From NCBI RefSeq assembly GCF_026151205.1, contig NC_087074.1, forward strand, positions 16,813,962 to 16,877,961: a DNA stretch of 64,000 nucleotides. Reading direction: 5' to 3'. The notes beneath the pieces were generated by a model. That model had not been told where the DNA came from and searched no databases. It saw only the letters and a program-made list of their open reading frames with translations. The stretch is from Bolinopsis microptera. Its lineage: Eukaryota > Ctenophora > Tentaculata > Lobata > Bolinopsidae. Positions within the stretch are counted from its first letter, which is position 1, and each line of letters starts with the position of its first letter. A program made the translations under genes and the position numbers. Below are positions 20,333-63,714 of the stretch, in pieces.

Positions 20333-20760
20333 GAACAAAAGTAGTTTCCAAGAAAACTTTGAAAATTTTTGTCTTAGAAAATTTTCGGTCCGAGTCATTC
20401 TCGATACGCACCTCTGAAAGCTGAGCTCCCGCTTCCGAGCTCGTATTGCAAAGGGGCCTGCCTTCCGAGATCGCATTACAAAGGGGGACCCTCGAGTCCA
20501 AAATCTTTTATCGAACTTCGAAAACCGAAAAAAATATTTTTGGCTCATAATGATCAGGGTAGCAGGAAACATGAACAAAAGTAGTTTCCAAGAAAACTTT
20601 GAAAATTTTTGACTTAGAAAATTTTCGGTCCGAGTCATTCTCGATACGCACCTCTGAAAGCTGAGCTCCCGCTTCCGAGCTCGTATTGCAAAGGGGGGCC
20701 TGCCTTCCGAGATCACATTACAAAGGGGGACCCTCGAGTCCAAAATCGTATACTTACAAA
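20333..20760. repeat. Tandem pair of a ~240-bp dispersed repeat
   Basis: Two consecutive units, starting at gaacaaaagtagtttccaag (20333 and about 20573), share over 95% of bases by eye, including 'ggtccgagtcattctcgat' and 'ggaccctcgagtccaaaat'. The same family occurs at 18545 and 46.8-47.2 kb. Open frames on the minus strand here are by-products of the repeat. Confidence 0.8.
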
Positions 20761-45300: not shown

Positions 45301-48300
45301 AGCATCAGGCACAGTAGTAGAAATAGAGGTGAACAGATACGGTGCTCTAAATTTTGTTTGAATCGTAAACCTTTTTAAACTAAAGAGCATTTTTGGGCAT
45401 ATGAAGCTGTATATGTCGTATTTTATTGGGGTGGTCATACTCATTCCAAGTAGTTTTAATAATTGGAGAAGTTTTTTTTTGCCAACCCAGCCAGAGATAC
45501 CAATATCAGGTGCTATTTTGGTGAACCAAAAACAGATTTTCATGAATATATCTTTAAAACTAAGTATTTTGTAACATAGAATGGGTAAATTCTTGTCAAA
45601 TTACGAATGATATCGAAAATTTTCGTTAGTTAAAGTAAGTGTTGAATGATCTATATTTAGGAATTGTAAATTGCAAAAGTCTGAGCTTTTGAATAATTAT
45701 CTTACCACGGGACTATACGATCAATGATCTTTGAAGAGTTTATTGAGGTCTCGTGTGAATATTATACTCTCACAAATTAAATAATCTTGCTAAAACAGGA
45801 TTTCTGACGAACTTTAGTAGTCGAACTTCAGTGTGTGTCGAACTTCAGTACGTGAATCTTTTTCACAACACAGTGTCTTTTTTATGCTCATTCGAAAAGC
45901 AAGTAAATAAGTAAATAAGATCAAAAGCATAAAAAGGCCTGGAGAGTACAGAATATGGTCGGCACAAATATTTGTATTTAAAAAAAATCAATTCTGCGAC
46001 TCGAAAACAATAATTTACAGGATTTTTTATCTGAAGAAAGAAAAATACCGTGTCCACGTAGCAACAGGCACAGTAGTAGGAATAGAGGTGAACAGATACG
46101 GTGCTCTAAATTTTGTTTGAATCGTAAACCTTTTTACCGATGTCAATACAAAATTACAAAATTACTAATGAGCATTGTTGGGCATATGAAGCTGTATATG
46201 TCGTATTTTATTTGGGGTGGTCATACTCATTGCAAGTAGTTTTAATAATTGGGGAAGTTTTTTTTTGCCAACCCAGCCAGAGATACCAATATCAGGTGCT
46301 ATTTTGGTGAACCAAAAACAGATTTTCATGAATATATCTTTAAAACTAAATATTTTGTAACATAGAATGGATAAATTCTTGTCAAATTACGAATGAAATC
46401 GAAAATTTTCGTTAGTTAATGTAATGCGCTTAGTCAATAAAGACACCGTGATTGTCATAAAAAGGAAATGATGAAGCAAGTATTCAGGAACATAGGCATG
46501 ACACAAAGAAGAATGGTCGGTGGGGATTGGGACCCACTTAAATCACCTTAACACAGTGCCCCTCAGTAATCCATCCTGTCACTCAAATTATTTGTTATAT
46601 AGTAGTGTTGAAAGTATTAATGATCTATATTTGGAATTGAAAATTGCAAAAGTCTGAGCTTTTGAATAATTATCTTACCACGAGACTATACGATCAATGA
46701 TCTTTGGAGAGTTTAATGAGGCCTCGTGCGAATATTATACTCTCACAAATTAAATCATCTTGCTAAAACAGGATTTCTGGCGAACTTTAGTTGTCGAACT
46801 TCAGTATTTACTGCGGGAGGCCTCGAGTCTAAAATTGTGTAAGTCACAATTTTTCAAAGTTTTTCTGAAAACCACTTTTCTCCACATTTCATGCTTCCCT
46901 GTTCATTATTAGCCGAAAATATTTGTTCGGTTTTTCGAAGTCCGCACCTACCCCTCGAAACACTATTTTGGACTCGAGGCTTCCCCCTGTTAATGCGATC
47001 TCTGAAGGAAGGCCTCCCCTTTGCAACACAAGCTCGGAATCGGGAGCTCTCGATACGGGAGGTACGTACCGAGAATGACTCGGACTGAAAATTTTCTAAG
47101 ACAAAATTTTTCAAAGTTTTTTCTGAAAACCTCTTTTCTCCACGCTTCATGCTACCCTGTTCATTATTAGCCGAAAATATTGTGTCCAAATCATGTGCAA
47201 AAAGTTCTCATAATGTTTGTCCGTTAATGTCAGCTAATGTCCGTCCGAGCCCACCAATGTCCGTCAATGTCCGCTAATGTCCCAAAAACACGTCCGTTTG
47301 TCTCATAGAATCCAAAAAGGACAGGACACAGGCGGACATTGGTGGACATGTCACCCCCTCCTTTAACATACTGTTCGAGTATAGATGAGCGTTGAATATT
47401 GTCAAAAGCTCATTACATTAAACATTTCGATGCCCATTCGGTGGTGCTCCCACTTCTTCCTCTGGACAACAGATAGTAACATGCGTTGACACCATACAAT
47501 ATCTGCACATGACCTGTTCTTCTTATAAGCACATTGTCAGGGTCCAGTGACTGCCTCAATTTCTGCTCAATCTGTTTTGACGTAGCCATTGTCAGAATCT
47601 TTCTAACTGCGTTTGACAGGATGAGGGGTCGTAGGTTCTTCGAGAGTAAACCCCGAATTTTACATCACATTTTACAAACATCAAAATCAACAAAAAAACT
47701 TTTTTTGAAAAATATGACCTTTTTCCTTATGTTACAGCTTCTGTTACGTTCCTCCCTGAGATTTTATACATGTATTGAAAGTTGAGACTAAGTTTCTTAA
47801 TTTTAATCACGTCAGACAACCAAATATCAATGAATAATTCACTTCCCTGTAACTTATGCAACTGACTGTCAATTACTAATTACATACTAATTACATATTA
47901 ATTACATATTAATTACATATTAATTACATACTAATTACATACTAATTACATGTACTAATTACATACTAATTACATACTAATTACATAATAATTACATACT
48001 AATTAAATACTAATTACATACTAATTACATACTAATTACATACTAATTACATACTAATTACATATAAATTCAGGTTTACAAGATCTGTACCGAGGGTTGA
48101 GTACGATATCTCCGGACTTGTACCCCAGCAGAGGGTTCCTGTTACTTGACTCTGAGGGTGTCCCTCAGAAAAGGGCTGTCCCTCAGGAGCCTTCGCCCAA
48201 CAGACGACAGGTGCGTGTATAATGTACAATGTATATAACATGTACAATGTATATATACATTATATTTAAATGCAAAATTATTGCACTTTGTCAGGATATG

Positions 48301-48608
48301 GTTACCCTTCAAGTTCATGAAATTGTATTAAGAAAGACATAACATTATCATCTTCGAGAACACCTTAAATCCCATAGTTATCTAAATGCATCCTCAATAA
48401 TGGTTTCAATAATAAATCAGGTGACTAATATAACAGTATTTCTGATCACCAGGTTTGGCTGCTGCTAGGCGGACTTGGTTCTCAGTGGGTAGGCATGGGA
48501 CGAGGGCTCATGGAGTTCCAGCCTTTCAGACTGAGCGTGGAAACTTGTCAGAATGTTCTAAACGACTTAGGAGCTGACGTGGACATTGTTCACATTCTTT
48601 GTAGCGAG
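30305..48608 (+). CDS. Animal fatty acid synthase or FAS-like polyketide synthase: ketosynthase plus start of acyltransferase (12 exons, 3' incomplete)
   Basis: Exons: 30305-30437, 30611-30826, 32627-32727, 33341-33416, 33685-33764, 33956-34072, 34348-34452, 34796-34942, 35180-35362, 40168-40366, 48074-48210, 48453-48608. Phases match at every junction. An in-frame TAG lies three codons before the ATG. The beta-ketoacyl synthase domain opens with EIVISGMSGRFPES and DDRRWPVGVFEV. Its catalytic triad is complete: Cys in THDTGCSAS (exon 4), His in EAHGTGTQAGD (exon 8), His in SNLGHAEPASG (exon 9). NAFGFGGSNAHVIL closes it (exon 10). Exons 11-12 give the linker and the acyltransferase start (GGLGSQWVGMGRGLM). 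This enzyme condenses malonyl units onto the growing chain in the cytosol. The GHSxGE serine motif and later domains are not seen. Exon 10 could end at 40366 (phase 1, fits exon 11) or 40370. A small exon may be missing between 10 and 11. Whether it is true FAS or an animal PKS relative cannot be told from this part. Confidence 0.9.
30811..30967 (+). repeat. 22-bp splice-donor minisatellite, block 1
   Basis: About seven units of actggggtttatatcg+gtatgt. The first unit is the real exon-2 end (16 bases, to 30826) plus its donor hexamer GTATGT. Each later unit repeats both. Confidence 0.95.
30968..31205. repeat. Fold-back element, copy 1
   Basis: A 238-bp non-coding segment with three consecutive hairpins: ATTTTCACC/GGTGAAAAT, GTTTTATCCA/TGGATAAAAC and a perfect 12-bp stem GAGTTATATCCC/GGGATATAACTC. 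It interrupts the 22-bp array and is repeated 743 bp downstream. It may be a small fold-back mobile element that entered the array before the array was duplicated. Confidence 0.8.
31206..31710 (+). repeat. 22-bp splice-donor minisatellite, block 2
   Basis: About 23 units, mostly cggtatgtactggggtttat with variants (tactgagg, tactgtgg, tgctgggg, acttgggt). No frame contains a stop, since 22 is not a multiple of 3 and all three registers are open, which explains the long overlapping open frames seen here. Confidence 0.95.
31711..31948. repeat. Fold-back element, copy 2
   Basis: Essentially identical to 30968-31205, offset by 743 bp. Block 2 plus one fold-back element forms a higher-order repeat. 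Confidence 0.85.
31949..32455 (+). repeat. 22-bp splice-donor minisatellite, block 3
   Basis: About 23 more units, with the same variants in similar order as block 2, as expected of a higher-order duplication. It ends about 170 bp before the exon-3 acceptor at 32626. Confidence 0.95.
32913..33384 (+). repeat. 64-bp splice-acceptor repeat, seven copies
   Basis: Seven copies of 'accacttatattgcacag' (acceptor) plus about 40 exon-4 bases (gtttcagagtattttaag...gtgaaacac). Exon-like starts lie at 32943, 33007, 33071, 33136, 33201, 33267 and 33341. Only the last copy continues into the real exon coding the catalytic cysteine. Confidence 0.95.
34073..34205 (+). repeat. 10-bp tactggtaca array starting at the exon-6 donor
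   Basis: Directly after exon 6 (CAG|GTACTG) the intron becomes about 12 units of tactggtaca, the first three slightly diverged. The array contains the donor's own GTACTG. Confidence 0.92.
35099..35171 (+). repeat. Pyrimidine-rich tandem array at the exon-9 acceptor
   Basis: Imperfect copies of 'aatctcccaatct' run up to the acceptor 'ccatcccttag' of exon 9 and supply its polypyrimidine tract. Confidence 0.75.
35363..36706. other. FAS-like intron 9, left part
   Basis: Starts with the donor GTGAGT, then 35385-35490 holds AT-rich imperfect repeats (acaatgtatacatg, ataatgtata). The rest shows no exon. The open frames at 35272-35588 arise from the AT repeat. Confidence 0.5.
36707..36714. other. 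Left 8-bp target duplication of the hAT element
   Basis: cttctgtt, identical to 40135-40142. Confidence 0.9.
36715..40134 (+). mobile_element. hAT DNA transposon, 3.42 kb, decayed transposase
   Basis: The ends are 12-bp inverted repeats CAGTGGCGTAAC, flanked by a perfect 8-bp duplication cttctgtt. Both features are diagnostic of hAT. Near the right end, reading frames with stops recover LSQLHKHDLTEELNLI (about 39.29 kb) and SAEKSFSKLKLLKKLRST (about 39.42-39.47 kb), the C-terminal hAT dimerisation motif, so a transposase once lay on the plus strand. Both ends carry GC-rich 'ggcgcccccc' tracts. Two ~145-bp internal direct copies (about 37957-38104 and 38430-38577) have no coding role that I can see. 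The element occupies most of FAS-like intron 9 and ends only 33 bp before exon 10. Confidence 0.93.
40135..40142. other. Right 8-bp target duplication of the hAT element
   Basis: cttctgtt. It now forms part of the pyrimidine stretch upstream of the exon-10 acceptor (AG at 40166-40167). Confidence 0.9.
41091..44344 (-). pseudogene. Arthropod/tunicate-type hemocyanin or prophenoloxidase, intronless, split by a Penelope-like insertion
   Basis: Exonic parts are 44344-43289 (N-terminal ~352 residues) and 41906-41091 (C-terminal ~267), together about 619 residues, the usual family length, with no intron. Copper site A reads EHHAHWHLYYAW with its third His in YMHEQMLARYDFQ. Site B reads LHNFGHVVIA with its third His in FRWHKFVDS. 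The C-terminal part has the beta-rich domain III with CGCGWPRNLLVPRG. There is no signal peptide, as in prophenoloxidases. Such proteins bind O2 or oxidise phenols using two copper ions. The frame breaks exactly at a 12-bp duplication (gctgtcaacgaa, 43289-43300 and 41895-41906) around the inserted element. The interrupted frame would add nine foreign residues and stop, losing domain III. Coding is otherwise undamaged, so the break is young. The gene lies antisense in the FAS-like intron 10. Lack of introns suggests a retrocopy. Confidence 0.88.
41907..43288 (+). mobile_element. Penelope-like element remnant with GIY-YIG region and 228-bp inverted repeats
   Basis: The insertion is bounded by a 12-bp target duplication. 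It has a 45-bp extension on the left (41907-41951), inverted arms of 228 bp (41952-42179 and 43061-43288) and a 0.9-kb interior. The interior plus-strand frame (about 42182-42916, 244 codons) is a C-terminal RT linker and GIY-YIG endonuclease-like part: CTTSNCRTCA, VYHITCEVDN, NYGGETYRPIKCRFDEH, LAKHYRESHP and a terminal KPTLNDKTELNNL. In Penelope-like elements, a 5'-truncated copy often carries an inverted terminal segment and a short one-sided tail, matching this. The GIY signature itself is weak (VYHI...NYGGET). The reverse transcriptase core is missing, so the copy cannot move alone. Confidence 0.82.
44345..46800. repeat. Direct duplications in FAS-like intron 10
   Basis: A 31-34-bp unit (ctaacgctaaattaatatta) occurs three times at 44840-44950. 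A ~719-bp segment starting 'aggaattg..aattgcaaaagtctgag' occurs at 44938 and 45657, with a partial third copy at 46626-46810. Copies are about 95% alike with small indels. The junction near 46590 carries the dispersed fragment attatttgttatatagtag. Open frames here (such as 45096-45305) duplicate along with the repeat and show no domain. Confidence 0.75.
46801..47190. repeat. Dispersed repeat related to 18.5 and 20.3 kb
   Basis: Shares 'ctcgagtccaaaat'-type, 'gagctcccgcttccgagctc'-type and 'gagaatgactcgga'-type blocks, in inverted order relative to the copies at 18545 and 20333, with more divergence. An internal duplication of 'ttttctgaaaacc...cttttctccac' is present. Confidence 0.65.
47340..47650 (-). 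mobile_element. LINE reverse transcriptase fragment
   Basis: The minus strand reads LRPLILSNAVRKILTM, then in shifted frame RSGSTTEWASKCLM and AFDNIQRSSILEQ. These match the RT pattern N-L-R-P-I..LS..RKI, G-R-S-T-T-E and AFDSIQR. Frameshifted and short, hence a dead fragment. Confidence 0.6.
47871..48062 (+). repeat. 11-bp TACTAAT array abutting the exon-11 acceptor
   Basis: About 17 copies of 'tactaattaca' run to within 10 bp of the acceptor (aaattcag|G at 48073). The unit contains TACTAAT, close to the strongest known branch-point consensus TACTAAC. Confidence 0.9.
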
Positions 48609-49189
48609 GTCAGTGAGATTATCATAATACCTTAACACTATAATTTCATGACAGTAGTTATGTAGCTTCATAAGACCCATGCATCACTCAGGCATAACGC
48701 TAGTTTAAAAACTAGACGATGAATGAATATTGAACTATAAGCTTTTAAAGGAGGCGAGACAGATCATTTATGTGAGATATCTGAGTTAAACTGCTGAATA
48801 ATTGAATAGAGGCACACATTATGACATTACGTCAATGTATGTGATATGACATTGCATGCCTCCAGATACAAACCACGTACAAAACAACAAAACTACACTC
48901 TGTGAAAGGTGACAAACCGGATAACATTATTCACATCGTACTTATAGATCAGATGGAGGGGTTTATCAAATTAAACAATCGGAATTGTGGGTGAACATTG
49001 GAATCATCACTTGGTGGAAACTAAATAGAATTTCGTTAAAATACATTTGCAATGCGGTGATAATTTTGGATCATACCCATGTACAATGTATAAGTTCAAC
49101 GCTGTTTCAGCAATTGAACTGGAATTGGTCATAAAAACTTGAATTTGTCATAAAAATGTATAAAACACGCTCAATCTGATGCAACTCAC
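48609..49189. other. Gap between two convergent incomplete genes
   Basis: After FAS-like exon 12 (+) and before the last visible sushi exon (-) there is no stop codon, poly(A) signal or further exon that I can assign to either gene. Confidence 0.5.
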
Positions 49190-51730
49190 CCGAATTAACG
49201 CATTTTGGTCGTCTATTCTTATACCCATACAGTATGTGTTTGACACACGTTATCACTGAATCTCCCAGCACCTCCAGTTTCCCCCTGCAAGTCACATCCA
49301 CTTCAGTGCCGTACACTACTGGGAAAACTGTCTCCGTTTGCAGGTCGTTTACTATCGGCAGGGCCCTACACTCGTCTGTGGAGATAGGTTTTTAAGTTTT
49401 TTACCTCTGGAGCAAGACGAGTTGTAAGATTTAAGTTATTAAAACACGAAAAATTGTTATTCTGTTTCCTAATTGTAACCTGTAATAGTAACCTGTTATA
49501 GTGATCACTAATAGTGACTATAATTAATAGGAACACAACCCACACACTCACCAGCAACACAGTTAGGTTTGCTATTGTACCCAAACTCCATAGTCTCCAG
49601 ACATGTGAGAGTGCTGTCTCCCTCTAGTGTCTGACCAGGATTACAGAACACTGTTACCACGGTGTTGTAGTGTACTGGTAGTGAGGTGGCCGTGGACAGG
49701 GTACCGGTATCTGGTGCCGGGATCGTATCACACTGACCTGCGTTACGTTAGGTATCATGTGACGTCACGCCACGTGTCGTGACGTCACACCAAGAATATT
49801 GGCATTTCGGTGTGAGTCAGTCAGCGGTGTTGGGAGTTTCAATACTAAATTTTGGTAATGAGAAAGAAAAAGGTTGGAAGAAACTAGTGAGCGTGATCTC
49901 TCTCTCTCTCTCTTTTCAATCAAATTGGGCCCACCACATTAGACATTTAGCCACTAAAGTATCTAGAAATGCAGGCATTCTCTACAAACTCAAAGGCTCA
50001 GTACCTACCTACCTAACAAAGCACTTAAATTGATATACAACAGCTTTGTTCAGTCTCACTTGTACTACTGCTGCACAGTTTGGAGAACAAGATCACTAAA
50101 CTCCGTTAAAAGAATCTTCTCGGCCCAGAAAAAGGGCATTCGCGCTGCAGACAACCAATACCACCGTTATTTTTATGACTAAGATCTGAACAGTACACCC
50201 TCGTCCTTCACACACAAAGGACATTTTAAATAGACTAGAAGTATTAGCTTTACCGAACGTGATAGCTAAATGTATATCATACTTAAAATGAATATATGCT
50301 TAAAATGCTTAAAAATGCTTAAAAATGCTTAAAATGTATATTTTTTGAAAAATTTTAGCTTGCTATCTCAATAATTAGATAAATTATAGCGTCTCAACCA
50401 AAAAATTATTCTTTCCGAAAATTGCACTCTTTACCAGGAAATGCTCGATTACAAAAATAGGTATTCTCAAAATAATTTTGTTGGTGTGGAAACAGTGCGC
50501 TAGAGGGTCACTGAACTGCCTATGAGGTCATTTGTGTTGGACGGCACAAACCACTGTTTTGGTGTATGCCCCCTTAATGCACAAATTTTATTCTAACACT
50601 GCACCACCAAATATTATAAGACTTACGGGTTAAGTGCTTACTGCACAAGCACTTAACCCGGATGACAAGGACTGGAACAACTCAAATTTCGTACTTTTAG
50701 AAATTTAAATAATTTGGTACAGCATACATATATACGTTGATAACGACGAGCAACGAAACTTTTACCTAACGAAATATGACTATCTTCGAGAATTTTTACA
50801 ATGCTATCGCTACCGCGCAATTTCACTGTCATTTGCAAGATAAAAATATCACCGCGCATTCTTCAGACCCTGTGTCGCTGTTCTAAATTTATGTCAAGAG
50901 ATAAGAGTTATTTAAAAATTCTTAATAGTACTATTTAAATTTGCTAATAGCGTAATCATATTTTATACATTATTCATATTTTATACATTGTGTGGCGTGT
51001 GCATATATTTATATTTGATTGTAATTAAAGATTTTAAGGCGTTAGCGCCGAGTAATGCCTCTGGGTAGTGCTCCTCAATCAAAGCCTCTTACGTATTTTA
51101 CACTGAGGCAACTGCTGAGCTACTCTGAACTCCCTCCCCTTAGTACACGTGACCACACTATCTCCACTCAACCGGTACCCCTCCTCACACGTGACTGATA
51201 TAGTGGTCCCGTACTCCACTGGTAGTGAGGTACTGGTGTGTAGGTTCCTGCCTTCAGGGAGCCCTTCACACTCGTCTGGGTGTAGAGAATTTGTATTTGT
51301 TTAATGTATACATTAAAGGTGTAGTATATACTATAAGGGGTTTTTAGTTAGAATGTTGAAGTTGGTAAAGCCGATACGTACAAATTGTTAGATTATTTCC
51401 CCGTACTAAGCCTAATCAAGGCTGCTCTAGTGTTGGAAAGAAGACCGAACAGCCAAACATTATTCTTAAAATGTGTTCAACGGTATGACGGTAAGTTGAT
51501 GGAAATGATGAAGCAAACGTAAGAGAAAAGAGAAAAGCCGCACCTTTGTCACAGTTGGGCGGGTTATTGAACTGGAACTGTTCCCCCTTCAGACACGTGA
51601 CTAGCACTGTCTCCGGACAATGTGTACCCTGTTACACACTCAAAGGACAGTAGACTCCCTGATAGTAGTGGGAACTCCGCACTCGGCACTAGCTCCTCTG
51701 ACCAATCCAGGGGCAAGTTGAGACACTTTT
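49190..51730 (-). CDS. Four sushi (CCP) modules of the mosaic gene
   Basis: Exons 51730-51544, 51275-51093, 49737-49552 and 49375-49190 each encode one sushi module of about 60 residues with four cysteines and G-D-S before the third: EECEGLP-type starts, [17 protein letters not shown] (module 2), [17 protein letters not shown] (3), [17 protein letters not shown] (4). Module 1 ([13 protein letters not shown]) has a one-base loss just after GDS, then resumes [17 protein letters not shown]. Sushi modules mediate protein binding in complement-like and adhesion proteins. Confidence 0.85.
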
Positions 51731-54700
51731 CTGACAAAAAACGGATAGATGTTCAGGTTTTCATGAATTTGAATCATCATTTTTGCTTGAGAACAAGGAT
51801 ACTATTGGATATATATAATTAACAGGTGTCAGGTTTATTCTACATCTGAATTTTCATTTAATTTTCAATTTACTTCAATCAGTTTACCTCTAAGGGCACT
51901 GCCGAACACTTTGATCTCTGCTATGTTCATCTGAGATCCATCTGTATCAGTAAACTTGATCATATCTCCTTCCGCCTCCCTGCAATCTACACTGTATTCT
52001 CTTTTGTTCCGGGAAATTCCTGCCAAAGTTCAATTCAGCTTATCAGTGTGAATGTTACATTTATGAAGTATATGTGGACCTTTATGGAATGCCATGAACC
52101 CTTTTTCTTGCTATACATAAGGATCCAACTTAACCGTTCTTACACAATTTTTTAATCTACAGTATTTAATATCGTGGAATTGTTTTTTAAAAACAGCTAA
52201 TTGAGGATGACTATGTAATAGTGTCGAATAATTAAAAAAAGTAACTACTAACCGACGATGAGCCCACATGCCCTCACTAGAGCACCAGACTGATACACCT
52301 CCACCAGCGTCTTCTCCAGTCTCTTCTCACAATCCTCGTCACACAAATCATCACCACGAGCCACTTTGTTCACCACAACTACCAACTTTACCGCGTAGCT
52401 GTCATCAAATGTAAGCTTTATCCAGGCGGCTGGGTTGTTGGAGCCCTGGTGGGCCGGTGAAACTGAGAGGAAAGTGGCGTAGTCCCCGTCTAGAAGGTGA
52501 GATGTTGTAGTCCCGTCGTCAGTCTGACTGGTTGTGATGCTGATCTGCTCCAGTTTTGGTCCTGATAAGTTTATCATTGCGGTTTGTAAGCTGTGTATGG
52601 CGAGCGGACCATATTATCATAACAATGCTTATTTGAGACACAGTTAATAAACTGCGGAGTGACTATAATGCTATACAACAAAAACCGTTTTTATTCAGCT
52701 TAGGAATAATTATAAACTCACTACAAGTAAGAAATAATTGAATATTATGAATACGATAGGTAGAACATTTCCCTATCCTAATTAAAGCCCTTTCCTTAAC
52801 GGGAACATTAAAAACGAGCCTGAACATGAAAATTCCTCTTTATTAATTAATTAATTATTCAATTAAAGTGCTGACCCCACTAATCAAAGAAGGTTTCCTG
52901 TTATTTCTTACTCTATCTTGTCAATATAAACTAAGTGAATGATTAACTAACCCGTTTAGTTAATACTCTCAAAAGAGACTTAAACTCATTCGAGTGACAG
53001 TTAGTTAGTTTGAACATCAAAAACGATAGAACTACTAACCACATTTAGGTATATCACAGATTTCAAATCGAGGTTCAGTTCCTTCAGCATTATAACACCA
53101 GGGGCCTGTCTCACTGAAAACATATGTTAATTGAGAATTTCTGAAAACAAATTTCACAGATCGTTTACATTTTTAATTCCCTCTTCATTGCAGCTTTTTG
53201 TTGAAGATTTCACTTCATAAATGTGATTTCACTTTATAAATGTGTTTGCCCCTATCTTAGTCTTGTGCTGGACTTGATGACAATGGAACGCTACCAGATA
53301 TTGATGACTTACCCGTCTGGATTTCTGCAATAGTTCTCTTGAAGTCCTGAATAAGGGTATCTGAAAAGGTTTTTGTGATAAGCTCTTTTCCTAAAATAGG
53401 TTATGCTGTGAATCGTAACTAAGTATTGTTATGGAAAAAATTTGCGAGACCTCGAAAATAGTTTAATTATGACCAATGTTCAAATTGAAATCATATACAT
53501 ATAATATTTATTTTGTACATTTTGTATATGTTACTTTTTAATTAAATTAATTAATCTTATCTGGATAATGCTGCTTTGTGGCTGACTATCTGTTGTGCCT
53601 TAGAAGCACCCAGAAAACTTACCCCTCAGGAGTTCTGCTGTGGTTCATTAGGTGGATTAGAGTCCCATCTCTGGCAGACTGTCCCTGATAACCGTTACGA
53701 TACAGTTCCCCTGTACTCTAATCCATCTTCATCAATACAATGGTCTGAAATAGAGTTTCATCGGTTATTATTTTTAGAAACGCTACTATAGTAAAGATTG
53801 GAATGGTATATTGCGTTAACGATGCCTTGATAGTGAGGTTACGGGGAAAAGCCCAGCAGCGCAAAAATATTTTAAACATTACATCCGAACGAACTAAGTT
53901 GATTTCCAAAAGAAGTGGTACATGGACTAAATGAATAGGGTGAATATGGATCCCAACACCCTACTGTATACCACGTGTTTGCCCACTTATATTGTCACTA
54001 AAATTAAAGGTTCCGCTAAAGACATATGGTCGTATCGGCTGAGGTTAAAAAATCAACTTTCCAGTTAGCTGAGTAAATATTTGGGGGCATTAAAAACGAG
54101 CCTGAACATGAAAATGCCTCTATGAATTAATCAATTAATTTACTGTCTCCTTCATTGATGAGAATATTATCATTCTTACCATCATTCGCAATTTCTCCGT
54201 ACAAGTTTATCTCGGCGAGGTTCATGGCCGCTGGAGCAGGGCTCTTGTGTGTTAGAATCACTGAATTCCCCTTTGCATATTGACAGGAAACAGAGTATGA
54301 ATCCTGATCCTCTTTCACTCCTAGGTGTGTGATACTATTAGTCGAACTGATGATGATGTGATATTTATCTCTTGTTTGATTTGAGATAGCGCGCGGTTGA
54401 ATTAACAATTCATAGAATAATCGAGTCTATAAGTTCTATAAAACCTTGAAATTTAAAAGTTAGAAGTTAGAACCTACCGACTATAGTACCACAGTTCCTA
54501 ACAACACTTTCAAACTGAAAAACTTCTACTCTGGTGTTCTCCAGCCTTCTCTGACACACAGTGTTACACACATACCCCCCTGTACTCCTTCTATTTACTA
54601 CTTCAACTAGAACAAAGTTGAAGTGATTGGCTTTGAAGTCTATTTTTATCCAAGACTCGCTGCCCAAATCAGATCCACTGGAAAAGAAGGTGTCAGGGTT

Positions 54701-57700
54701 TCCGTCCGTTAAATGTGGGAGTGGGATGATTGGGTTCAGTGTCCGGGGTAGTGATCGTAGCTTGGCTCAGATCCAACTTTTGGGAGTTCCTCACTTGTGA
54801 TAAAAAGTTTATTGTTATTTTTTGTCGACTACTTTTGTTATCATATTCTGTTTATAATGACTTGATCAGCGCAACAATGTCCTTGATGGCGATTCTTATT
54901 ATCAAATATAATATGCACCTGTAACATCACTTCCATATATGGTCACATCAGAGAAACTGAGTCTACCGGCATTGTCCGTCAATTTCACCGCAGATCCCCT
55001 TTCTCCTTTGCAGTCGACTCCACGTGACCCCAAACCACCTGATGTACAAGTTTAATAATTGTAAATCAAAATTTGTTTGATAAATTGAAAAGGCCCCGTT
55101 GTAGTAAGAGCTGTACTTGACATATTATTCTGAAAGTTCAAATGAGAAAAGCTAGCGGCCGATTTCATTCTTGTTATTACAAGTAACTGTTGATCACTCA
55201 ACAGTCGATTTACAAGCATTGTTTTGTGGATTTTCAACAAATTTCTCTATGGTATGGAATAAGAAGGATTACCTGGGGGTGTAGACTTTATCGGCAGTAA
55301 ACGTGTATCTGCGGGTTAACAGTCCCAAGATGATTGTTTATTTGCTGACATCGCGCTCCAAGGTGCTCCATCTTGATATACCTAGGTTGCTGTAGATGCG
55401 GCATAATTCCAGTTGTCTCCTCAACAAAGTCCGCTTCTCCCACCCATCATCCAGCTGTATTATGAGCGAACCCAAGATCGCCGTCATGAGAAACATTGTC
55501 TCCCTGCATCTTCGACGGCGGCCAAATCCCATAAACCCCCTCCTATGTTAGACACATTTAATCTAGCACCCTAGTGTCGAAGGAATGTTAAGATAGACAC
55601 CTGTCTAGACCCTGCCCATCCTACGTCTATCTGAACTCCATCAACCCAGAGTGGTCCAACTCATCGTCACAAACCACCTTCATCCGTGAATTTTGGCCCT
55701 GAAACGAATATTTGCGGATAAAATGAGCTTGTTAATGGTCAGTATTGATATTTGAGAACAGGTAAATGCTCATCGCTCGGATTTCAAGCAGTTTTTTGGT
55801 AGAATTGCCAAACAAATCTTCTATGGTATGGAAGAAGAAGTATTACCCGGCCGTGGGAAGACTTTTCGGCAGTAAACAGTGGTATCTGCGGGGCTATCAC
55901 TACAGTCCAGATGATTTGTTTATTTGCTGACATCGAGCCATGGTGCGCCATCGGGATAATAGCCAGAGTTGTTGTATGAAGATGCTGCATTCAGTTTCTC
56001 CTCAACAAAGTCGCGCTTTCTCCACCCATCATCAGCGTATTTGAGCAAACTCCAAGAGTTTGTCATTCATGAGAACATTTCCCCCTGCTGCATCTTCGAC
56101 GGCGGCCATAATCCCATAACCCCCTCCGATGTTAACACATTTAATCCCAGCACCACTGAGTGGTCCGAAGGAATTTAAGAGTAGACACCTGGTCCGTAGA
56201 CCCCTTGCCCATCTAACGGTCTACTGAACGACAATCACCCAGAGTGTCATCACATCGTCACAAACCACCTTCATCGTGAATTGTGGCTCTGAAACGAATG
56301 GGATATTTGCTTGGATTGCAAACAGTTTTTTTTTTTTTTGTAGAATTGCCCAAACAATTCCATTGTAGCTGTGAAATGATAAAGTGCTGACCCCACTAAT
56401 CAAAGAAGGTTTCCAGTTATTTCTTACTCTATCTTGTCAAAGACAATATAAACTAAGTGAAGGATTAACTAACCCGTGTAGTTAATGCAGGCTCCACATG
56501 AGCAATGATTTGAGGTGACACCGCACCACCCAGCAGAAGAGCAACAACTCTTGTAGCCAAGGTGGCACTGAGCTGGAGTACCATCAGAGAGTGGGTGGGA
56601 TGATCCACACTGACCATCGTATCTCCACTTCTTCACAGTCCTTCTCATAACTTTCTTCACATTCCCTTAATAAATAAATAAATTAATTAATACTTAAATT
56701 AATAAACAATAATTTAGCTGGGATTAACCTTGTCCCCCAATACTCAGACCAATTTGTCAAATTCTTCTTGGGTGTTCATTAGAGTTCTAGTGACGATTTG
56801 GATGAGAATTTGGACAAAAACATATACGACTCTCTCAAAAGAGACTTAAACTCATTCGAGTCACAGTTAGTTAGTTTGAACATCCAAAAACGATAGAACG
56901 TTACTAACCACATTTAGATATCATAACAGATTTCAAATCGAGGTTCATATCCTTCAGCATTATAACACCAGGGGCCTGTCCTCACGAAACATATGTAATT
57001 TGAGAATTTCTGAAAACCAAATTTCACAGATCGTTTACATTTTTAATTCCTCTTCATTGCAGCTTTTTGTTGTTGAAGATTTAACTTTATAAATGTGTTT
57101 TGACCCTATCTTAGTCCTGTCTGGACTTGATGACATGTAGCGCTACCAGATATTGATGACTTACCCGTCTGGATTTCTGCAATAGTTCTCTTGAAGTCCT
57201 GAATAAATGGTATATGAAAAGGTATTTGTGACTATCAGCTCTTTTCCTAAAATAGGTTTGCTGTGAATCGTACCTAAGACTTGTTATGGAAAAAATTTGC
57301 GAGACCTTCGAATAAGTTTAATTCTGTCCAATTTCAAATTAAAATCATAACATATAATATGGTATTTGTATATTGTGAACTTTTTGTATTCAATATGTTT
57401 ATTGTATTAAATTACAAAACGTTATCTGGATAATCTGCTTTGTGGCTGACTATAAGTTGTGCTAGAAACCACCCAAGAAAACTTACCCCTCAGGAGTTCC
57501 GGCGTGTATATTAGGTGATTGAGAGTCCCATCTCTGGCAGACGTGTCCTGATACCGTTACAGATACAGTTCCCCTGTACTCTGATCCATCCTCATCCGCT
57601 TCATCAATACAATGGTCTGAAAATAGAGTTTCATTGGTTATTCTTTTTAGAAACGCTACTATAGTAAAGATTGGAATGGTATATTGCGTTAACGATGCCT

Positions 57701-60700
57701 TCATAGTGAGGTTACGGGGAAAAGCCAGCAGCGCACCAATATTTAAACTTTTAAAGTGGACGACCTAAGTTCTATTAATGAAGTGGTCGAATAAATACGT
57801 TGAGTATGGATACAAAAGAAGGAACGTTGTTCGATTGAAAACAAACTATATTGTCACAGAAATTGAAAGGTTGCACTACAGTCACCGCATAAATAGTATA
57901 AAGTAGAGTATAATGCCTTTTGGCCACGAAGGGAAACACACAATGTAAGGCTTGAAATCTTCGTAAAACTGCATCATTAGAGCTCAAATTATTTGTTATA
58001 TACAGGGTGTACCATAGAAAGTGTGACGTTTTTTGAGAAATGATCAAAATATATGAAGGAGCAGTTGCTAAAACTTCTTCATCACATTGTGTCACAGTGT
58101 CGAATTTATGCATACCAAATTTCAAGTCCCCATCAATTGATTTCTCACAATCTCAAATTCTAAATTGTTATGGTGCTAATCTAGAACTTAAACAGTGCGG
58201 TAATTTAGGGGTCTCAAGAAAAAATTTCGAAATCAATATTTAGCTATTTTTGACAGTAAAGAGTATTGTCAATCATTTTGCATTTGTTCTATCAAAAAAT
58301 TATGTTTCCTAGCCGAAGTTATCGCTGGTCAAAGGTCAGCCGCTCATAAGTAATTGTAATGTGCTAGCGAATTACTATCACGCGTAGTGACCATCGAGTT
58401 TATCTGGCTTAGTGAAAATCGAGTCTAAAAATATTATTTTCTCCGCCTGTTTTTTGATTAATCACCCAGAAACTATCAAATATGTGTTAGGATCATTAGA
58501 AGAGATTGTCCAGGCAGAATTTAGAGGAGGTCTTTTAAAACGATTTTATTATATTTTTGAAAATCTTGGACTCAGCATGATAATGTCAATTTCAGACTAG
58601 AATAGTTTAATTTTTGGGAAGGGTGCTTTTTTTGTAAGGGTGCTTTCACTATTAACCATATTTTTTGTTATTTTTAGTATGCCGATTCAACTATAATTTT
58701 CTGACAAAATTTATTTAAAATATAACCGTGGAGTATAATTTCTGGTCAAAAACTATTAAAGTGGAAAAAAAGTCACAACATTAAAACGGTACACCCTGTA
58801 GTAGTGGTTTAAAAGTACTTTTTAAAGTAGTACTGACCTGTTACAGTGCCGCAAGTCTTCGCCAGAGCGCCCTGTCCCTGCAGCACGTCTATCTGAGTAT
58901 CCCTATCCTCCCACCACACTTCTTACTCTGATCTTGGCAGTTGTCTCCGTACCTGTAGTTAATTTTACGTTTTTATGTTACGTTTTTAAATGTTTAGCTC
59001 TAAAATACTTAAAATGTGTCCAACAGAATGGATGTCCTATACCCATGGCGTCTTCTCACCTGTACGTGACCCTGACGAAGCCTATCTCCTGCTCCTGCTC
59101 CAGAGTGAGCAGTACCCAGGGTTTGTCGGAGTAGTCACCACTTGACCGGTAGTACGTGACCCAGTTTCCGTCGATGGTCTTCAGGGGTCCGTGTGGTGAT
59201 TCTTCTGGTGATCCTACCGCGGATGCTATATTCAGTACTTTGTGCTCGTCTGAGAAACATAATTATTATTAATGACATAATTGCATATTATTTTTATATT
59301 ATATCAATTTTAAATGTATGATACTAGTGAGAAGACAGATAAACCAATATGTGTATTCTAATTGAAGAGTTCAATTGGTGTCAGTTGATGTTGTTACGGT
59401 AGCAAGTAAAGTGTCCCAGGTTTACGACTTGAAGTTGCAGTGTTGTAATAAGTACTTTCGATTTACTTGAAAATAACAATTCCCAATCGTTTAGCTGTTA
59501 AACAGTCAACATACCCAACAACTTTAAACTTACTCTTAGGAGGCAGGCCGTATATTGTGATCTCCGCTAAGTTCATTACATCAGGAGTTCCATCTGTGTC
59601 AGACAGCTTCACTTCTGTTGCTACTTCTCCGCCACAGTTCAATCCGTAATACTTCTCTTCTGTCACCTCTGGAGATATTTACTGTTAGTTAAAATTCAGC
59701 ATTATTTGATTGGCTAATAGCGAAACATGGCAACGTTTCCTGTGTCACAAATACCGTCATAAACCCCGACAATTATCCCAAATCTAATTAATTGTAACCG
59801 ACCTTCGAGCACACCACAGGTCTTAACAAGTACACCCGACTGCTACAGGTCCCAGCTGGTAGACTCATGACTCTTCTTACAATATTCACCACACATCCCA
59901 TCATCCCTGTTCGTCAACACAACCCACCAAACAGCCTGGCGTCCTGCCAAGCTCAACTTGATCCACGGTGAGAACCTGAGGTTAACGTCAGATTTGTAGA
60001 AGGTTGCCGAGTCTCCGTCCCGTGTGTAGGATGGTTCGTGCCCGGGTGAGTGAGGGGATGCTTCCACAGATGTCACCTCAAGGAGCTTGTATACAAAATC
60101 TGGTAATGATTTAATCAGTTGAGCGTCGGGAATTATTTAATCGTGTAGTTTTATAGTTAAAATAGTGCCGTTCACGTATTCATGGTATCGCCATTGTTAA
60201 TTTAGTTTTTTACGGTCAGATCTAAGTGTCCGGTGACAGTGTTCTATCAGGACAATAATTTTAAATCTACCTGGACTGGTCCTATAGAAATCGCCGCTTT
60301 CAGAGCCGTCGAATGTTAGATTTGTGCTCTTCAACCCGACCCAATACTTCCCACAACCTTCCGAGGTATCGGAGGAGTAGAATACTAGTCTCTCCGTTTC
60401 CTCGTCCCCACACTGCAGGGCCAAGTCGAGATCCGTCTTTTCTAAGGTGCAGATTATCGTCGGGTTATTGGTTGGAACTCTCTTACATTCCACAGGGTCT
60501 TCCATGCAGTTTTCAACTTTCCACTTGTTATTCACGAAGTCCAGAATGATGGTATGGCTAGGTCCGCGCACTTTGGGTTTGACTGTAAAGGAGAGAACAT
60601 GGCGACCATTCGTTACAATTTGGAGGGGTCTCAGGTCCCCCAGTTGTACTCTACCGGCTCATCTGTAACGTTCATCCAACCTGATGTTGAATAAATGGGT

Positions 60701-63700
60701 TGTAACACTATTTGGGAAATAAAAGAGCTCTGCAAGTTTAAATGTGGACAAAGCGAGAGTGCTGACTGAAAGTACCAAAACGAGTCACAATACGCTATTT
60801 TAGGTTGCAACATTTCGTCTTGTGACTTCACGGTTCTTAAAAATTAACAGAAAACCACCAGTTATGGTTGTTCAACTCTCCGACCAGCATGAAAAAAATT
60901 CAGTTACAACTAAAGAATACCCACCAATAACAGAGAGATAATTAGAGCACATGTCCCCCTCGCACGTGACACTCTCATCCCCAGCACAACACCTACTATC
61001 CATGTTTATCTCGCTCCCACACACCCTTCCCTCTGGGCTAGATCCCAGCTCTCTCTCCCGTGTTTGCAACATTTCTGACCACTGTCATAGGCGAACGGGT
61101 GCTCTTTTGGGCAGGAACCCGCTGAAATTAAGAGGGTTATTTGATGTTTATGAATTATGATGGTTGTCGCTGATGGATTTATCGTAGAAAAATTATGGGA
61201 ACTTAGTCAACGCGGTCTAAAAGCCGTAACAAAAACAACAAACTAAACAGTTAGCAGATATAATATACTCAGTTTACCCTCCACAAACTAAACAGTTAGC
61301 AGATATAATATACTCAGTTCATTACCCTCCACAAACTAAACAGTTAGCAGATATAATATATTCAGTTTACCCTCCACAACTAAACAGTTAGCAGATATAA
61401 TATATTCAGTTTACCCTCCAATCAATGATTTAGCTCATTATAATACAAAAGATATGTCACCCCACCGTATGATAAGACGCAGTTGCATTGGTGCACCCTC
61501 TCCTTACTCACCGCAATGTGGTATGTTGCAGTATTCCCAAGCTGGAATGCTGGAGCTGCCTGCCACAAAACACCACGGTTTCTCTTTCTCTGCACCTGGG
61601 TTCCTGCAGTAGCTGTTCTTAAGATCGTCTCCTGGATACCTGCCAGAATACATTGTCAGCTGTTGTTATTTAGCTCTTAGTTAGCACTTAGCTCCTAGTC
61701 GGCTCTTAATTACGTATCAGTCAGCTCTTAGCAGCTATTATTAGTCAGCTATTGTATTAGTTAGCTATTAGCAATTAAGAAATTGTATGATTTCAAAATT
61801 TCAATTCATCATGAACCTGGTTGAGGTGTAATCGTGTGCCGTCCTAGTGTTGGAATCCCAGCTGAGACATTTGTAACCGGAGGCACTAGTGTCTTCCTTA
61901 CCACGGTAGTTGAGGCCTTGTGGGTCTAACTCTGAGCTCCAACACCCCACTACATCTGAGACAGTATTTCAATAAACATTTAGTATTTGATAGTGAATAA
62001 CGATGGATCTGTTGGGAGAATTAACAGAATATTTTCAAAAAGAATCTCAGGTGAATTTAGGTAATATCCTATTTCTTAAGTCAGAGATTTCCTTTGTGAA
62101 AAAAATCTTATAAATGGGGGCGTTTTTATTTTTTTTGTTTGATAAATAGAGTATGGTCTCGATTCTAAAATTGAAGACTAATTCTTAACCGCCAGCAAAA
62201 GTAAGTTTATGTCACAGAATAAAAACAACGCTGAACGAAGTTTTCTTACACAATCAGAATGTCACAGTATCCCAGCGAGGGGCAAGTTCCCTCTGAGTTG
62301 TAAGACACCAGGGCCCATAGGTTCACCGTCAGGGTTCCTGCACTCGTTCACAGTTAGTCCGGACGTAGTTCCCCTGAGTGTGTTGTTAGTCTAGCTTGTC
62401 ATCCGTCATCAGTTCATTATTAGTCATTGTAGTTTGTGGTGTTATCATACATTTTAACTTAGGCCAATGAGTATGACTGGTAAGACCGTGGCATCGTCCA
62501 CTACTAAATGCTGGTGTCATATAATCTCACGTGGAATCATCAAGAAATACCGATTTGCACCACCTTACCGGTTGTCTGAAAAAACTGCATTTGTATTTGG
62601 ACTGTTAGCCCACCACCCCTGACAGAGTTGGCCGCTCTCCATCCGGTTTACGGAACCACGGTAGTTGCGACCCTGTGGGTCCCGCTTATGAAAATAGCAT
62701 TCCAAAGCGTTGGAACCTGAAGAGACCTGTATTAGCCTTAATATATCTGTATCAAACAAAACAAAAAATTGAAAATTACGATATGCATGATAAATATGAA
62801 ATATAAATACATAAATATATTGAGGTGGAATATAGCTTACGACAGAATACTTTGGTCTCGTAGTCATCTAACCATTCCATTATAGGTCCTGATTTGAACA
62901 ACAGTTCTTTTCCCTTGTGAATGACCACCTTTCGAATATAAAACACTTTAAAAAAGTTAAAAGAACGTAATTGTAGTAATGATTTTCTCTCTCCAAAAGT
63001 AATACTTTCAGCAGCTTAAACCCTGATTTCAATAAAATGTATTGAAATACCAAAGCAAGATGCCAGCCGTCTGTTCCTCCTATTCTGAATTGGACACATT
63101 CGATCTGTCCGACGTTCTCCAACCACAGAGTGTGACGATCTGTCGATCCAGTCCTGTGCCATTTTAATGTAGTTTTCATGAATTATTATCAAGAAATCTG
63201 CTGTAAACACTAAATTATAATATGTGAATTTAATTTAAGGAAAAAAATATATAACACATACTTCTTTATATCAACTTCTTTCTCTGAAGTTTTTCCCGTG
63301 GACCCGATTATGGTCAGATAGACCCAGTTGTCGGTGTAACTCTGAGATTCGTAGCTTGTCGATATGTCCACCGTATACTCTATGAGATCATCATCAACTG
63401 CGAAAAGTGAAGAGATTTTTAAAAAGTCCCAAGTTTTCACTCGCAGCGGAAACAGATGTTTGTGAGTTTTTATTCCTGGCGACTTTTTGGGAGATATAAA
63501 AACCGAAAACTAAGAACCCCGTATCTTTCCCAATATTCTATGTGGCGATTGGTGGGAAGTAACTAACTGAAACCTTAGGTTTAGTAAACTTCTAAAATAA
63601 CGAACTGAAATCTTAGGTTTAGTAAACTTCCAGAAAAAATGGTTTAAAATACATACCGGATTGTGACTGTGGCGTCAAAGATGCCACCAGTAACATTAAC

Positions 63701-63714
63701 TTCAATATTTCCAT
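49190..63714 (-). CDS. Large secreted mosaic protein: PLAT, kringles, Cys-rich, fucolectin-like, hevein-type and sushi modules
   Basis: Starts with a signal peptide exon (63714-63657, [19 protein letters not shown]). Order on the minus strand: PLAT (63397-63262, 63153-63051, 62928-62841), kringle 1 (62716-62569, 62373-62250), kringle 2 (61955-61817, 61639-61512), a Cys-rich module (61121-60925), an unnamed module (60582-60271), fucolectin-like module 1 (60099-59803, 59668-59534), module 2 (59249-59060, 58952-58838, 55038-54919), a duplicated block with kringle and hevein-type module, module 3 (about 54785-54480, 54323-54180), a kringle (53744-53623, 53346-53313, 53113-53040), module 4 (52561-52253, 52019-51888), and sushi modules 1-4 (51730-51544, 51275-51093, 49737-49552, 49375-49190). 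Almost every exon border is phase 1, typical of shuffled modules. A role in glycan or microbe recognition or clotting is inference. The 3' end is not seen. Several exons have one-base frameshifts. Confidence 0.75.
49905..50280 (+). mobile_element. LINE reverse transcriptase C-terminal fragment
   Basis: The plus strand reads [18 protein letters not shown] and [15 protein letters not shown], then, with frame shifts, LIYNSF and HLYYC...VW and [13 protein letters not shown]. This is the conserved C-terminal part of CR1/jockey RT (H-I..L..K.....G.L.+L...LP..TL...Y.S...SH..YC...W). It lies between sushi exons 2 and 3. Confidence 0.65.
50281..51092. other. Intron between sushi exons 2 and 3, remainder
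   Basis: AT-rich. A short 'atgcttaaa' repeat lies at 50288-50335 and an inverted pair 'gggttaagtgctt'/'agcacttaaccc' at 50629-50660. No exon seen. Confidence 0.4.
52870..53930. repeat. Duplicate block, copy 1 (kringle exons, no hevein exon)
   Basis: Aligns with 56390-57770 over kringle exons and introns, with many one- to three-base indels on both sides. Here the first kringle exon is broken by indels, but the last one ([20 protein letters not shown]) is intact. The hevein exon and about 340 bp of flank are missing between 'aacccg..tagttaat' and 'tctcaaaagagactta'. Confidence 0.8.
55260..56330 (-). pseudogene. Two indel-riddled copies of an exon, possibly fibrinogen-like
   Basis: Segments about 55.29-55.70 and 55.80-56.29 kb share 'cctcaacaaagtc', 'ccacccatcat', 'catcttcgacggcggcc' and 'accaccttcatc'. 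Mixed frames give KVVCDD, IVVQ, FGPLSG, KCVN, VEDA, DFVEE and DGAPW, which recalls the N-terminal half of fibrinogen C-terminal domains, but no frame runs far. Identification is weak. Confidence 0.3.
56390..57770. repeat. Duplicate block, copy 2 (kringle exons plus hevein exon)
   Basis: Counterpart of 52870-53930. Its first kringle exon (57616-57487) is intact ([30 protein letters not shown]), the 34-nt micro-exon (57198-57165, [11 protein letters not shown]) is intact, but the third exon has a damaged acceptor and an indel (FEICYDI instead of FEICDIP). Confidence 0.8.
56474..56665 (-). CDS. Hevein-type (chitin-binding type 1-like) module exon
   Basis: [50 protein letters not shown]. The eight-cysteine spacing and the CC..GWCG core match chitin-binding type 1 (hevein) domains. 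The DGxCGxxxPLxDGTPAQC start is the animal variant that I recall from cnidarian and lancelet proteins. It is inserted in the second of two duplicate kringle blocks and absent from the first. Confidence 0.75.
57771..58000. other. Intronic dispersed-repeat fragment beside the MITE
   Basis: No exon. Ends in attatttgttata, which continues at 58799 (tagtagtggttt) across the MITE. Confidence 0.5.
58003..58798. mobile_element. 796-bp TA-flanked DNA element (mariner-like MITE)
   Basis: Terminal inverted repeats CAGGGTGTACC/GGTACACCCTG, flanked by TA at 58001-58002 and 58799-58800. The interior has only short open frames, so it is non-autonomous. The uninterrupted target sequence (attatttgttatatagtag) survives at 15.92 and 46.59 kb, showing a TA insertion site. 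TA duplication points to the Tc1/mariner superfamily. Confidence 0.85.
58838..59249 (-). CDS. Fucolectin-like module 2, first half (frameshifted)
   Basis: [53 protein letters not shown], then [14 protein letters not shown]. The frame slips at the G-run TGTGGTGGGAGG and resumes as [19 protein letters not shown]. One missing base in the G-run explains it. Its exit phase (1) fits the second half at 55038-54919 ([20 protein letters not shown]), not the block in between. Confidence 0.65.
59534..60099 (-). CDS. Fucolectin-like (galactose-binding fold) module 1, with in-frame TAG
   Basis: First exon: [46 protein letters not shown]. An in-frame TAG follows at about 59848-59850, and the same frame continues with [14 protein letters not shown]. 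In module 4 the aligned position is Tyr ([12 protein letters not shown]). Second exon: [19 protein letters not shown] and [10 protein letters not shown]. The pattern (D-G, P-W-I-K-L, V-V-x-N-R, C..C, NLAEI.IYG) resembles F5/8-type and fucolectin domains that bind sugars. Confidence 0.7.
60271..60582 (-). CDS. Unnamed ~104-residue extracellular module
   Basis: A single intact exon: [69 protein letters not shown]. It has six cysteines and one N-glycosylation site (NLT). Alternating hydrophobic pattern suggests a beta-sandwich. No known family is recognised by eye. Confidence 0.6.
60925..61121 (-). CDS. Cys-rich module with one-base frameshift
   Basis: Reads [19 protein letters not shown], then a frame change near 61062-61066 at the run GCAAACACGG, then [35 protein letters not shown] and MCSNYL. 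The spacing C..CC..C..CC..C..C is a pattern I recall from invertebrate extracellular proteins, but I cannot name the family. One A missing from the homopolymer explains the break. Confidence 0.6.
61238..61425. repeat. ~46-bp intronic tandem repeat, four copies
   Basis: Four units of 'caaactaaacagttagcag' plus 'atataatatactcagttt' plus 'accctcca', with small indels, in the intron following kringle 2. Confidence 0.9.
61512..61955 (-). CDS. Kringle 2 of the mosaic gene
   Basis: Intact two-exon kringle: [30 protein letters not shown], then [19 protein letters not shown] and [10 protein letters not shown]. All six kringle cysteines and the NYRG and CRNP marks are present. Confidence 0.85.
62250..62716 (-). 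CDS. Kringle 1 of the mosaic gene (with indels)
   Basis: First exon: [29 protein letters not shown]. Second exon: [13 protein letters not shown] then the frame slips. The expected W-C-Y and C-D-I residues appear in the next frame ([16 protein letters not shown]). One base appears lost in the CCC/CCTGG run and one gained at TGTCTTAC. The kringle fold needs all six cysteines. Confidence 0.7.
62841..63397 (-). CDS. PLAT/LH2 domain exons of the mosaic gene
   Basis: Three exons join in phase: [20 protein letters not shown] and [20 protein letters not shown], then [20 protein letters not shown] and TDGWHL, then [10 protein letters not shown] and [14 protein letters not shown]. The pattern (Y-T-V, D-x-x-V-x-L-x-I-x-G..G.T, L..I..V..R.GG..GWHL, F.C) is that of PLAT beta-sandwich domains, known from lipoxygenases and polycystins, which bind lipids or proteins. 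The acceptor of the second exon (aaatggcacag, 63154) is poor in pyrimidines; the better-looking upstream acceptor gives an early stop. Confidence 0.75.

Follow-up and report, generated by a model that had tools for sequence, protein, structure and literature searches.

Secreted and other extracellular mosaics shuffled through modules with phase-1 borders are a well-known kind of protein, and in plasminogen-type kringle proteases a trypsin-like domain follows kringle modules with such borders. Mosaic domain combinations are also already known among the F-type lectins, according to PMC5712786. Here, we describe a mosaic unit found in a stretch of 64,000 nucleotides (the window) of contig C3 (NC_087074.1) in the 264.65-Mb genome of the ctenophore Bolinopsis microptera. 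We translated the minus strand between 63.7 and 49.2 kb in three frames, exon by exon, and scored the spliced pieces against Pfam. This reading gave about 14.5 kb with 30 exons and at least seven kinds of modules, all on one strand (Table 1). They appear in the order signal peptide, PLAT, two kringles (K1 and K2), a Cys-rich exon, a further exon (X), an F-type-lectin-like (FTP) module (FTP-A), the first part of another (FTP-B) and a third kringle (K3), followed by a hevein-like exon, an FTP second-half exon, FTP-C, a second copy of K3 (K3'), FTP-D and four sushi modules (S1 to S4). The limits proposed in an earlier note on this DNA, 63714 and 49190, are indeed where the signal peptide starts and where the last of the sushi exons located ends. 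The unit is probably one minus-strand protein-coding gene, nested within another gene, that would encode a secreted multivalent mosaic binding protein.

Three of the module kinds pass their curated Pfam cut-offs. PLAT reached 29.0 bits (PF01477, cut-off 23) and also matched 5-lipoxygenase chains at E 5.8e-5. Among the kringles (PF00051, cut-off 34.3), K2 scored 77.6 bits and the last two exons of K3' 47.5, and the sushi modules (PF00084, cut-off 20.7) reached 38.0 bits with S3 and S4 combined and 35.9 with S2. The FTP modules are below the PF22633 cut-off of 27.8 (19.9 bits for FTP-D and 18.8 for FTP-A), which a related copy in another region of the genome (L040) passes with 32.0 bits. A profile that includes FTP-A (A3) had the F-type lectin FBP32 (3cqo) as its top match (E 1.4e-6) and the eel lectin 1k12 in fifth place (E 3.7e-4); the three places in between went to alpha-N-acetylglucosaminidase chains (about 1e-4). 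Since glucosaminidase chains rank between two F-type lectins, it is safer to speak of the wider F5/8-type fold; we assign the FTP modules to it with confidence on sequence grounds, and their membership of the F-type sub-family is likely. The hevein-like exon also falls short of its cut-off (22.3 bits against 27.8 for PF00187) and matches 4zxm, a chain of peptidoglycan recognition protein 3 (PGRP3), at E 1.3e-11 (47.5 bits) over residues 9-63, cysteines included. No Pfam match was obtained for the Cys-rich exon, the first half of which recurs in five other regions (L031, L034, L040, L047, and L048). The module set named in the earlier note thus holds for PLAT, kringle and sushi above the cut-offs and for FTP and hevein-like modules below them, with the other support just given. 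Its list was incomplete, overlooking the Cys-rich exon, exon X and the broken frames in nine exons.

The borders of the modules agree with assembly by exon shuffling, as the note had proposed. All 23 readable module-border sides are in phase 1, a count to be read knowing that reading frames and splice sites were picked with the modules in view. Among the 27 exons tabled for splice sites, AG stands at every one of the 26 acceptors and GT at 26 of the 27 donors; the remaining donor was misplaced and has a GT three bases upstream. These phases and sites support exon shuffling as the probable origin of the mosaic. A scan for signal peptides on the minus strand between 48.6 and 64 kb had a single match, the exon already known, although the scan was simple and its thresholds and donor patterns were fixed after that exon had been seen. 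The claim that the modules follow one signal peptide is therefore supported, and with it a single secreted mosaic.

The surroundings point in the same direction. An acyltransferase exon of a fatty acid synthase/polyketide synthase-like (FAS/PKS-like) gene lies on the plus strand next to the unit (Table 1), and the next one is found outside the window, at about position 2365 of region L043 (window-equivalent ~66.2 kb; PF00698 positions 48-103, 46.1 bits). The two splice borders that flank the mosaic unit are both in phase 0. With acyltransferase exons on both sides and matching borders, the unit is nested on the opposite strand inside a single 17.6-kb intron. This FAS/PKS-like gene has very long introns and would extend over 30574-48632 of the window plus 2353-2520 of L043; the plus-strand ketoacyl-synthase matches at 30.6 and 34.7 kb probably belong to it, together with the acyltransferase exons.

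Table 1. Positions of the modules and exons of the mosaic unit, of the dispersed repeat within it, and of the adjacent acyltransferase exon.
Feature	Position	Strand	Exons and state	Match
Signal-peptide exon	63657..63714	-	19 residues; ends in phase 1	
PLAT	62841..63397	-	63397-63262, 63153-63051, 62928-62841	PF01477
Kringle K1	62250..62716	-	62716-62569 open; second part ~62344-62250 with two frame changes	
Kringle K2	61512..61955	-	61955-61817 and 61639-61512, open	PF00051, 77.6 bits
Cys-rich exon	60925..61121	-	two parts (first CPKEHPFAY...CC), internal frame change	no Pfam match
Exon X	60271..60662	-	~130 residues, frame change near start (~60637)	no Pfam match
FTP-A	59534..60099	-	60099-59803 (in-frame TAG ~59844); 59668-59534 open	PF22633, 18.8 bits
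FTP-B, first part	58838..59249	-	59249-59060 open; 58952-58838 with frame change	
Dispersed repeat, ~800 bp	57999..58800	-	ends apparently inverted; intronic, following FTP-B first part	
Kringle K3	56905..57616	-	57616-57487, 57198-57165, ~56981-56905 (last part frame-broken)	
Hevein-like exon	56474..56665	-	open	4zxm; PF00187, 22.3 bits
FTP second-half exon	54919..55038	-	open; assigned as remainder of FTP-B	
FTP-C	54180..54770	-	~54770-54476 (frame change near start, 5' border approximate); 54320-54180 open	
Kringle K3' (second K3 copy)	53040..53744	-	53744-53623 frame-broken; 53346-53313 and 53113-53040 open	
FTP-D	51888..52561	-	52561-52253 and 52019-51888, open	P0001
Sushi S1	51544..51730	-	frame broken	
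Sushi S2	51093..51275	-	open	PF00084, 35.9 bits
Sushi S3	49552..49737	-	open	PF00084, joined with S4
Sushi S4	49190..49375	-	open; last exon located, donor GTGAGT	PF00084, joined with S3
Acyltransferase exon, FAS/PKS-like gene	48453..48608	+		PF00698 positions 4-50, 24.4 bits, below cut-off 32.7

Exon X is a candidate for a new domain. A Pfam scan gave no match for it, and its relatives in the protein collection, P0002 (75% identical) and P0003 (69%), cover 89% of X and are located on two other contigs. Both carry it as an unbroken exon and are 89% identical to each other. In its own genome, X appears at the window locus as two adjoining matches in two frames; it has a distant relative in region L020, and the next best match is 34% identical. 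AlphaFold2, run on four X sequences, gave a model of low confidence, with a mean predicted local distance difference test score (pLDDT) of 33.7. FTP-D likewise has an unbroken relative, P0001, with 87% identity across 90% of the query, and all three relatives in the collection are single exons. Within the genome, FTP-D matched only FTP-C and FTP-A of the window itself, and the next best copies of PLAT were 33-44% identical among the first matches listed.

We surveyed relatives of the unit in 20 regions of the genome, with Pfam scans of L037, L040, and L031, i.e., what follows is module content and not spliced models. At C7:10.84-10.86 Mb we found kringle, hevein-like, five sushi and kringle modules; the order kringle, hevein-like, five sushi resembles that of the mosaic unit and was counted in favour of one mosaic gene. 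Another long series, at C10:16.14-16.16 Mb, reads FTP, Cys-rich, FTP, EGF-like, X-like, EGF-like and six sushi (one partial). Smaller sets are present at C4:9.39 Mb (a kringle half, hevein-like, PLAT, and Cys-rich) and C4:13.17 Mb (hevein-like, PLAT, and Cys-rich), together with PLAT plus Cys-rich in regions of C3 and C1, and PLAT plus weak sushi matches in regions of C1 and C5; the other regions had one module kind or none. The full module set was found in none of the 20. The modules also lie close to one another more often than random placement would give. Of 95 hevein-like matches, 4, the window included, had a same-strand kringle no more than 12 kb away (random mean 0.25), and PLAT had a hevein-like match in 3 of 15 (0.04) and a kringle in 2 of 15 (0.07), with the window counted once. 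These counts used 150 rows of the at least 154 kringle matches in the genome, 95 hevein-like ones and 15 for PLAT (the three of the window, out of 17, taken as one), and the expectations are rough since every contig was set to 20 Mb for the random placement. The earlier note had suggested looking for paralogues; smaller sets of the same modules exist at these other loci, and PLAT, X, and FTP-D are without a close second copy.

Two or more neighbouring genes of one module family could have been taken for one. The length of the unit, its 30 exons, and the abundance of such modules in the B. microptera genome would fit this explanation. It is nevertheless unlikely, given that there is a single signal-peptide-type first exon, that all the modules are on one strand with compatible phases, and that the whole unit lies inside one intron of another gene. 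That signal-peptide-type exon and the nesting each speak for one gene.

Frame breaks affect 9 of the 30 exons (K1 second part, Cys-rich, X, FTP-A first exon, FTP-B second exon, K3 last part, FTP-C first exon, K3' first exon, and S1), the one in FTP-A being an in-frame TAG. A former mosaic gene that is decaying in B. microptera, with no protein made, would have such breaks, and might also harbour a dispersed repeat like the one found within the unit. A control with the chaperonin family PF00118 (35 rows, ~4,150 profile positions by hand sum) had no neighbouring rows less than 100 bases apart, i.e., by eye no exon interrupted by a change of frame, a result that was counted for decay and also for error confined to the unit; stop codons were present in 8 of the 35 rows, with extra length compatible with an intron in 4. 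However, the single-base gaps are patchy and occur in introns as well as exons. Compared with one relative (L028), the last two parts of K3 and the first of K3' (K3-bc and K3'-a) had 13 of them in 590 aligned bases, 8 within introns, and the remaining parts (K3-a and K3'-bc) had none in 585; this control is small (1,175 aligned bases from one relative, with the halves grouped after a first look). The repeat pairs within the unit are gap-rich for their mismatches (gap openings to mismatches 35/68 and 42/49, mostly single-base), and most pairs elsewhere in the window are gap-poor (for instance 18/111, 5/23, and 4/49). Moreover, P0002 and P0003 carry X without a break. For these three reasons, sequence error seems a likelier source of the frame breaks than decay. 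Splice sites that are nearly all canonical, the open frames of PLAT, K2, the hevein-like exon, FTP-D, and S2 to S4, and the unbroken relatives that two of the exons have on other contigs also argue against a pseudogene. This was dropped as the first choice on account of the patchiness of the gaps and their presence in introns (with the small L028 control in mind), and we now consider it improbable. According to PMC10232365, the likely source assembly was made with wtdbg, its gaps were filled by TGS-Gapcloser, and it was polished with Illumina reads; steps of this kind could have produced patches of error. That paper also reports Iso-Seq reads from Bolinopsis.

A number of observations weigh against a single working gene or against noise as the cause of its breaks. 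Apart from the broken frames themselves, the final exon and the stop codon were not located on the minus strand of the unit, the join from K3a to K3b is out of frame with the sites chosen, and FTP-B is divided in two by K3 and the hevein-like exon, which would be odd in a working protein. The full chain of modules was seen at one place only, with single exons as relatives elsewhere, and a search of the protein collection with the hevein-like exon found no relatives. As to the noise, a short tandem repeat outside the unit (32.9-33.4 kb) has 3-4 gap openings for 4-7 mismatches, the open hevein-like exon, outside the gap count, has one single-base gap in each of two L028 alignments, and four short rows of the chaperonin control contain stops that no intron explains, perhaps because the match overruns the end of the exon.

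We are unsure of module order and copy number because the kringle unit K3 is written twice, with one copy between the FTP-B parts, and one of the two may well not be real. The K3 unit (56.8-57.8 kb) and the K3' unit (53.0-53.9 kb) are 85% identical over 994 columns, with 68 mismatches and 35 gap openings, and in a further stretch of 107 columns they differ by 3 mismatches and one 6-base gap, with no single-base gaps. The halves are complementary between the copies: K3-a and K3'-bc are free of single-base gaps, and K3-bc and K3'-a contain them. This would fit K3 (57.8-56.4 kb) and K3' (53.9-52.9 kb) being one locus written twice, through gap filling or haplotype joining, and the use of wtdbg with TGS-Gapcloser gap filling in the likely source assembly (PMC10232365) also points that way. 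Yet 68 mismatches in 994 columns is high for a single locus, the hevein-like exon is single-copy, and related kringle units elsewhere show that a true duplication is possible. We give the double writing an appreciable chance, though clearly less than even. It would leave a protein with three kringles and an unbroken FTP-B and is compatible with the single nested gene that we prefer. PMC3927609 warns that mispredicted genes distort domain architectures, and the warning applies here: with this much local noise, architectures taken from such stretches may err in order and copy number.

We also considered a mobile kringle/hevein unit inserted into the FTP-B intron and find it less likely. The matches elsewhere span the exons plus short flanks with varying ends, and because no fixed unit can be drawn from them a gene family fits better. 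The dispersed repeat in that intron has more than 20 other places in the genome (73-90% identity) and a last stretch of 37 bases that also matches the other end of opposite-strand copies. The K3 kringle unit has runs of three matches, ~3 kb apart, at C10:10.866-10.873 Mb and C1:17.894-17.900 Mb; in the former a hevein-like match adjoins the kringle. Between the hevein-like and the next FTP exon, a tandem pair of ~510 bases is located at 55207-56299 (79% identical, 42 gap openings and 49 mismatches), part of which is also found at C3:5.45 Mb (89%) and C6:10.32 Mb (80%).

If the unit is one gene, the protein from its single transcript would start with a signal peptide, PLAT and two kringles and continue with Cys-rich, X, two to three FTP, kringle/hevein-like, FTP and four sushi. 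The presence of one signal peptide and seven module kinds, with no enzyme domain found, makes a secreted, enzyme-free, multivalent binding protein the plainest reading. Many small binding modules on one chain could hold lipid-, glycan- or protein-bearing surfaces simultaneously, perhaps with the sushi array as a stalk, and the job of the protein would be surface recognition or adhesion. Roles in defence and in adhesion to the extracellular matrix appear about equally likely. The lipid, glycan and chitin binding and the immune role suggested in the earlier note rest on the names of the modules. It had also thought of egg or self-recognition; sushi and F-type-lectin-like modules do occur in egg-coat, allorecognition and other self-recognition molecules. 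The lack of close copies in the genome for three modules (PLAT, X, and FTP-D) speaks against this option, and we hold it to be highly improbable.

No title or abstract opening among those listed by searches of open-licence full text describes this module combination, and the exact module set, its nested position and exon X appear to be new. The architecture, called undescribed in the earlier note, is so, within these searches, only in its exact set, its components being found in smaller sets at other loci. A bolder proposal, which we put forward tentatively and would not back over its negation, is that the unit belongs to a ctenophore-specific, exon-shuffled family of secreted recognition proteins drawn from one pool of phase-1 modules. 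Such proteins might form a soluble pattern-recognition or aggregation system, with the present unit as the richest known mosaic and X as a new domain so far met only in the family. If true, this family would serve recognition in one of the lineages that split off first among animals.

The window contains other features. A hemocyanin/phenoloxidase-type gene, of a copper-protein family best known from arthropods, is found on the minus strand at 41094-44392 (Hemocyanin_M in 43262-44392 and Hemocyanin_C in 41094-41936); like the mosaic unit, it lies between matches of the FAS/PKS-like gene and on the opposite strand. Between its two parts there are inverted repeats of 236 bp, 99% identical (41944-42179 and 43061-43296), that enclose a plus-strand open frame of 245 residues, and 41944-43296 looks like a young inverted-repeat element. 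A tandem array with a period of ~185 bases and 93-codon open frames occupies 21573-27468. There are also a reverse transcriptase fragment (19492-20373, minus strand; RVT_1, 70.0 bits) and a U1 spliceosomal RNA gene or copy (36323-36485, plus strand; 78.2 bits against 69.5).

Several described systems share parts of this architecture. PGRP3 (4zxm and 4z8i), an amphioxus protein, is the closest solved relative of the hevein-like exon, but differs in that no PGRP domain was found in the three minus frames of the mosaic unit. The aromatics with which hevein contacts its ligand are two Trp and one Tyr; by eye, the hevein-like module seems to keep one of the three. F-type lectins such as FBP32 and the eel lectin share the profile match with the FTP modules. 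For this family, PMC5712786 gives a fucose motif, HX24RXDX4(R/K), and a cation motif, h2DGx (with h being V, A or I). The fucose motif was absent from all five sequences searched (FTP-A to FTP-D and P0001), of which FTP-B and FTP-C were incomplete owing to their frame breaks. All four FTP modules have a DG with D or N after it, but the residues before it (TR, TI, LT, and LL) match h2DGx only loosely (by eye). Because the fucose motif is absent and the hevein-like module is below its Pfam score, binding of glycans or chitin by the predicted protein is unproven. No protease match was obtained at E 0.1 in the three minus frames of 49-64 kb, where a domain split over short exons could escape, as PLAT did, and the unit differs in this from plasminogen-type kringle proteases, with which it shares phase-1 kringles. 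The loci most like it are in its own genome, with overlapping smaller sets of the same modules and an X-like exon only 34% alike over 88 residues.

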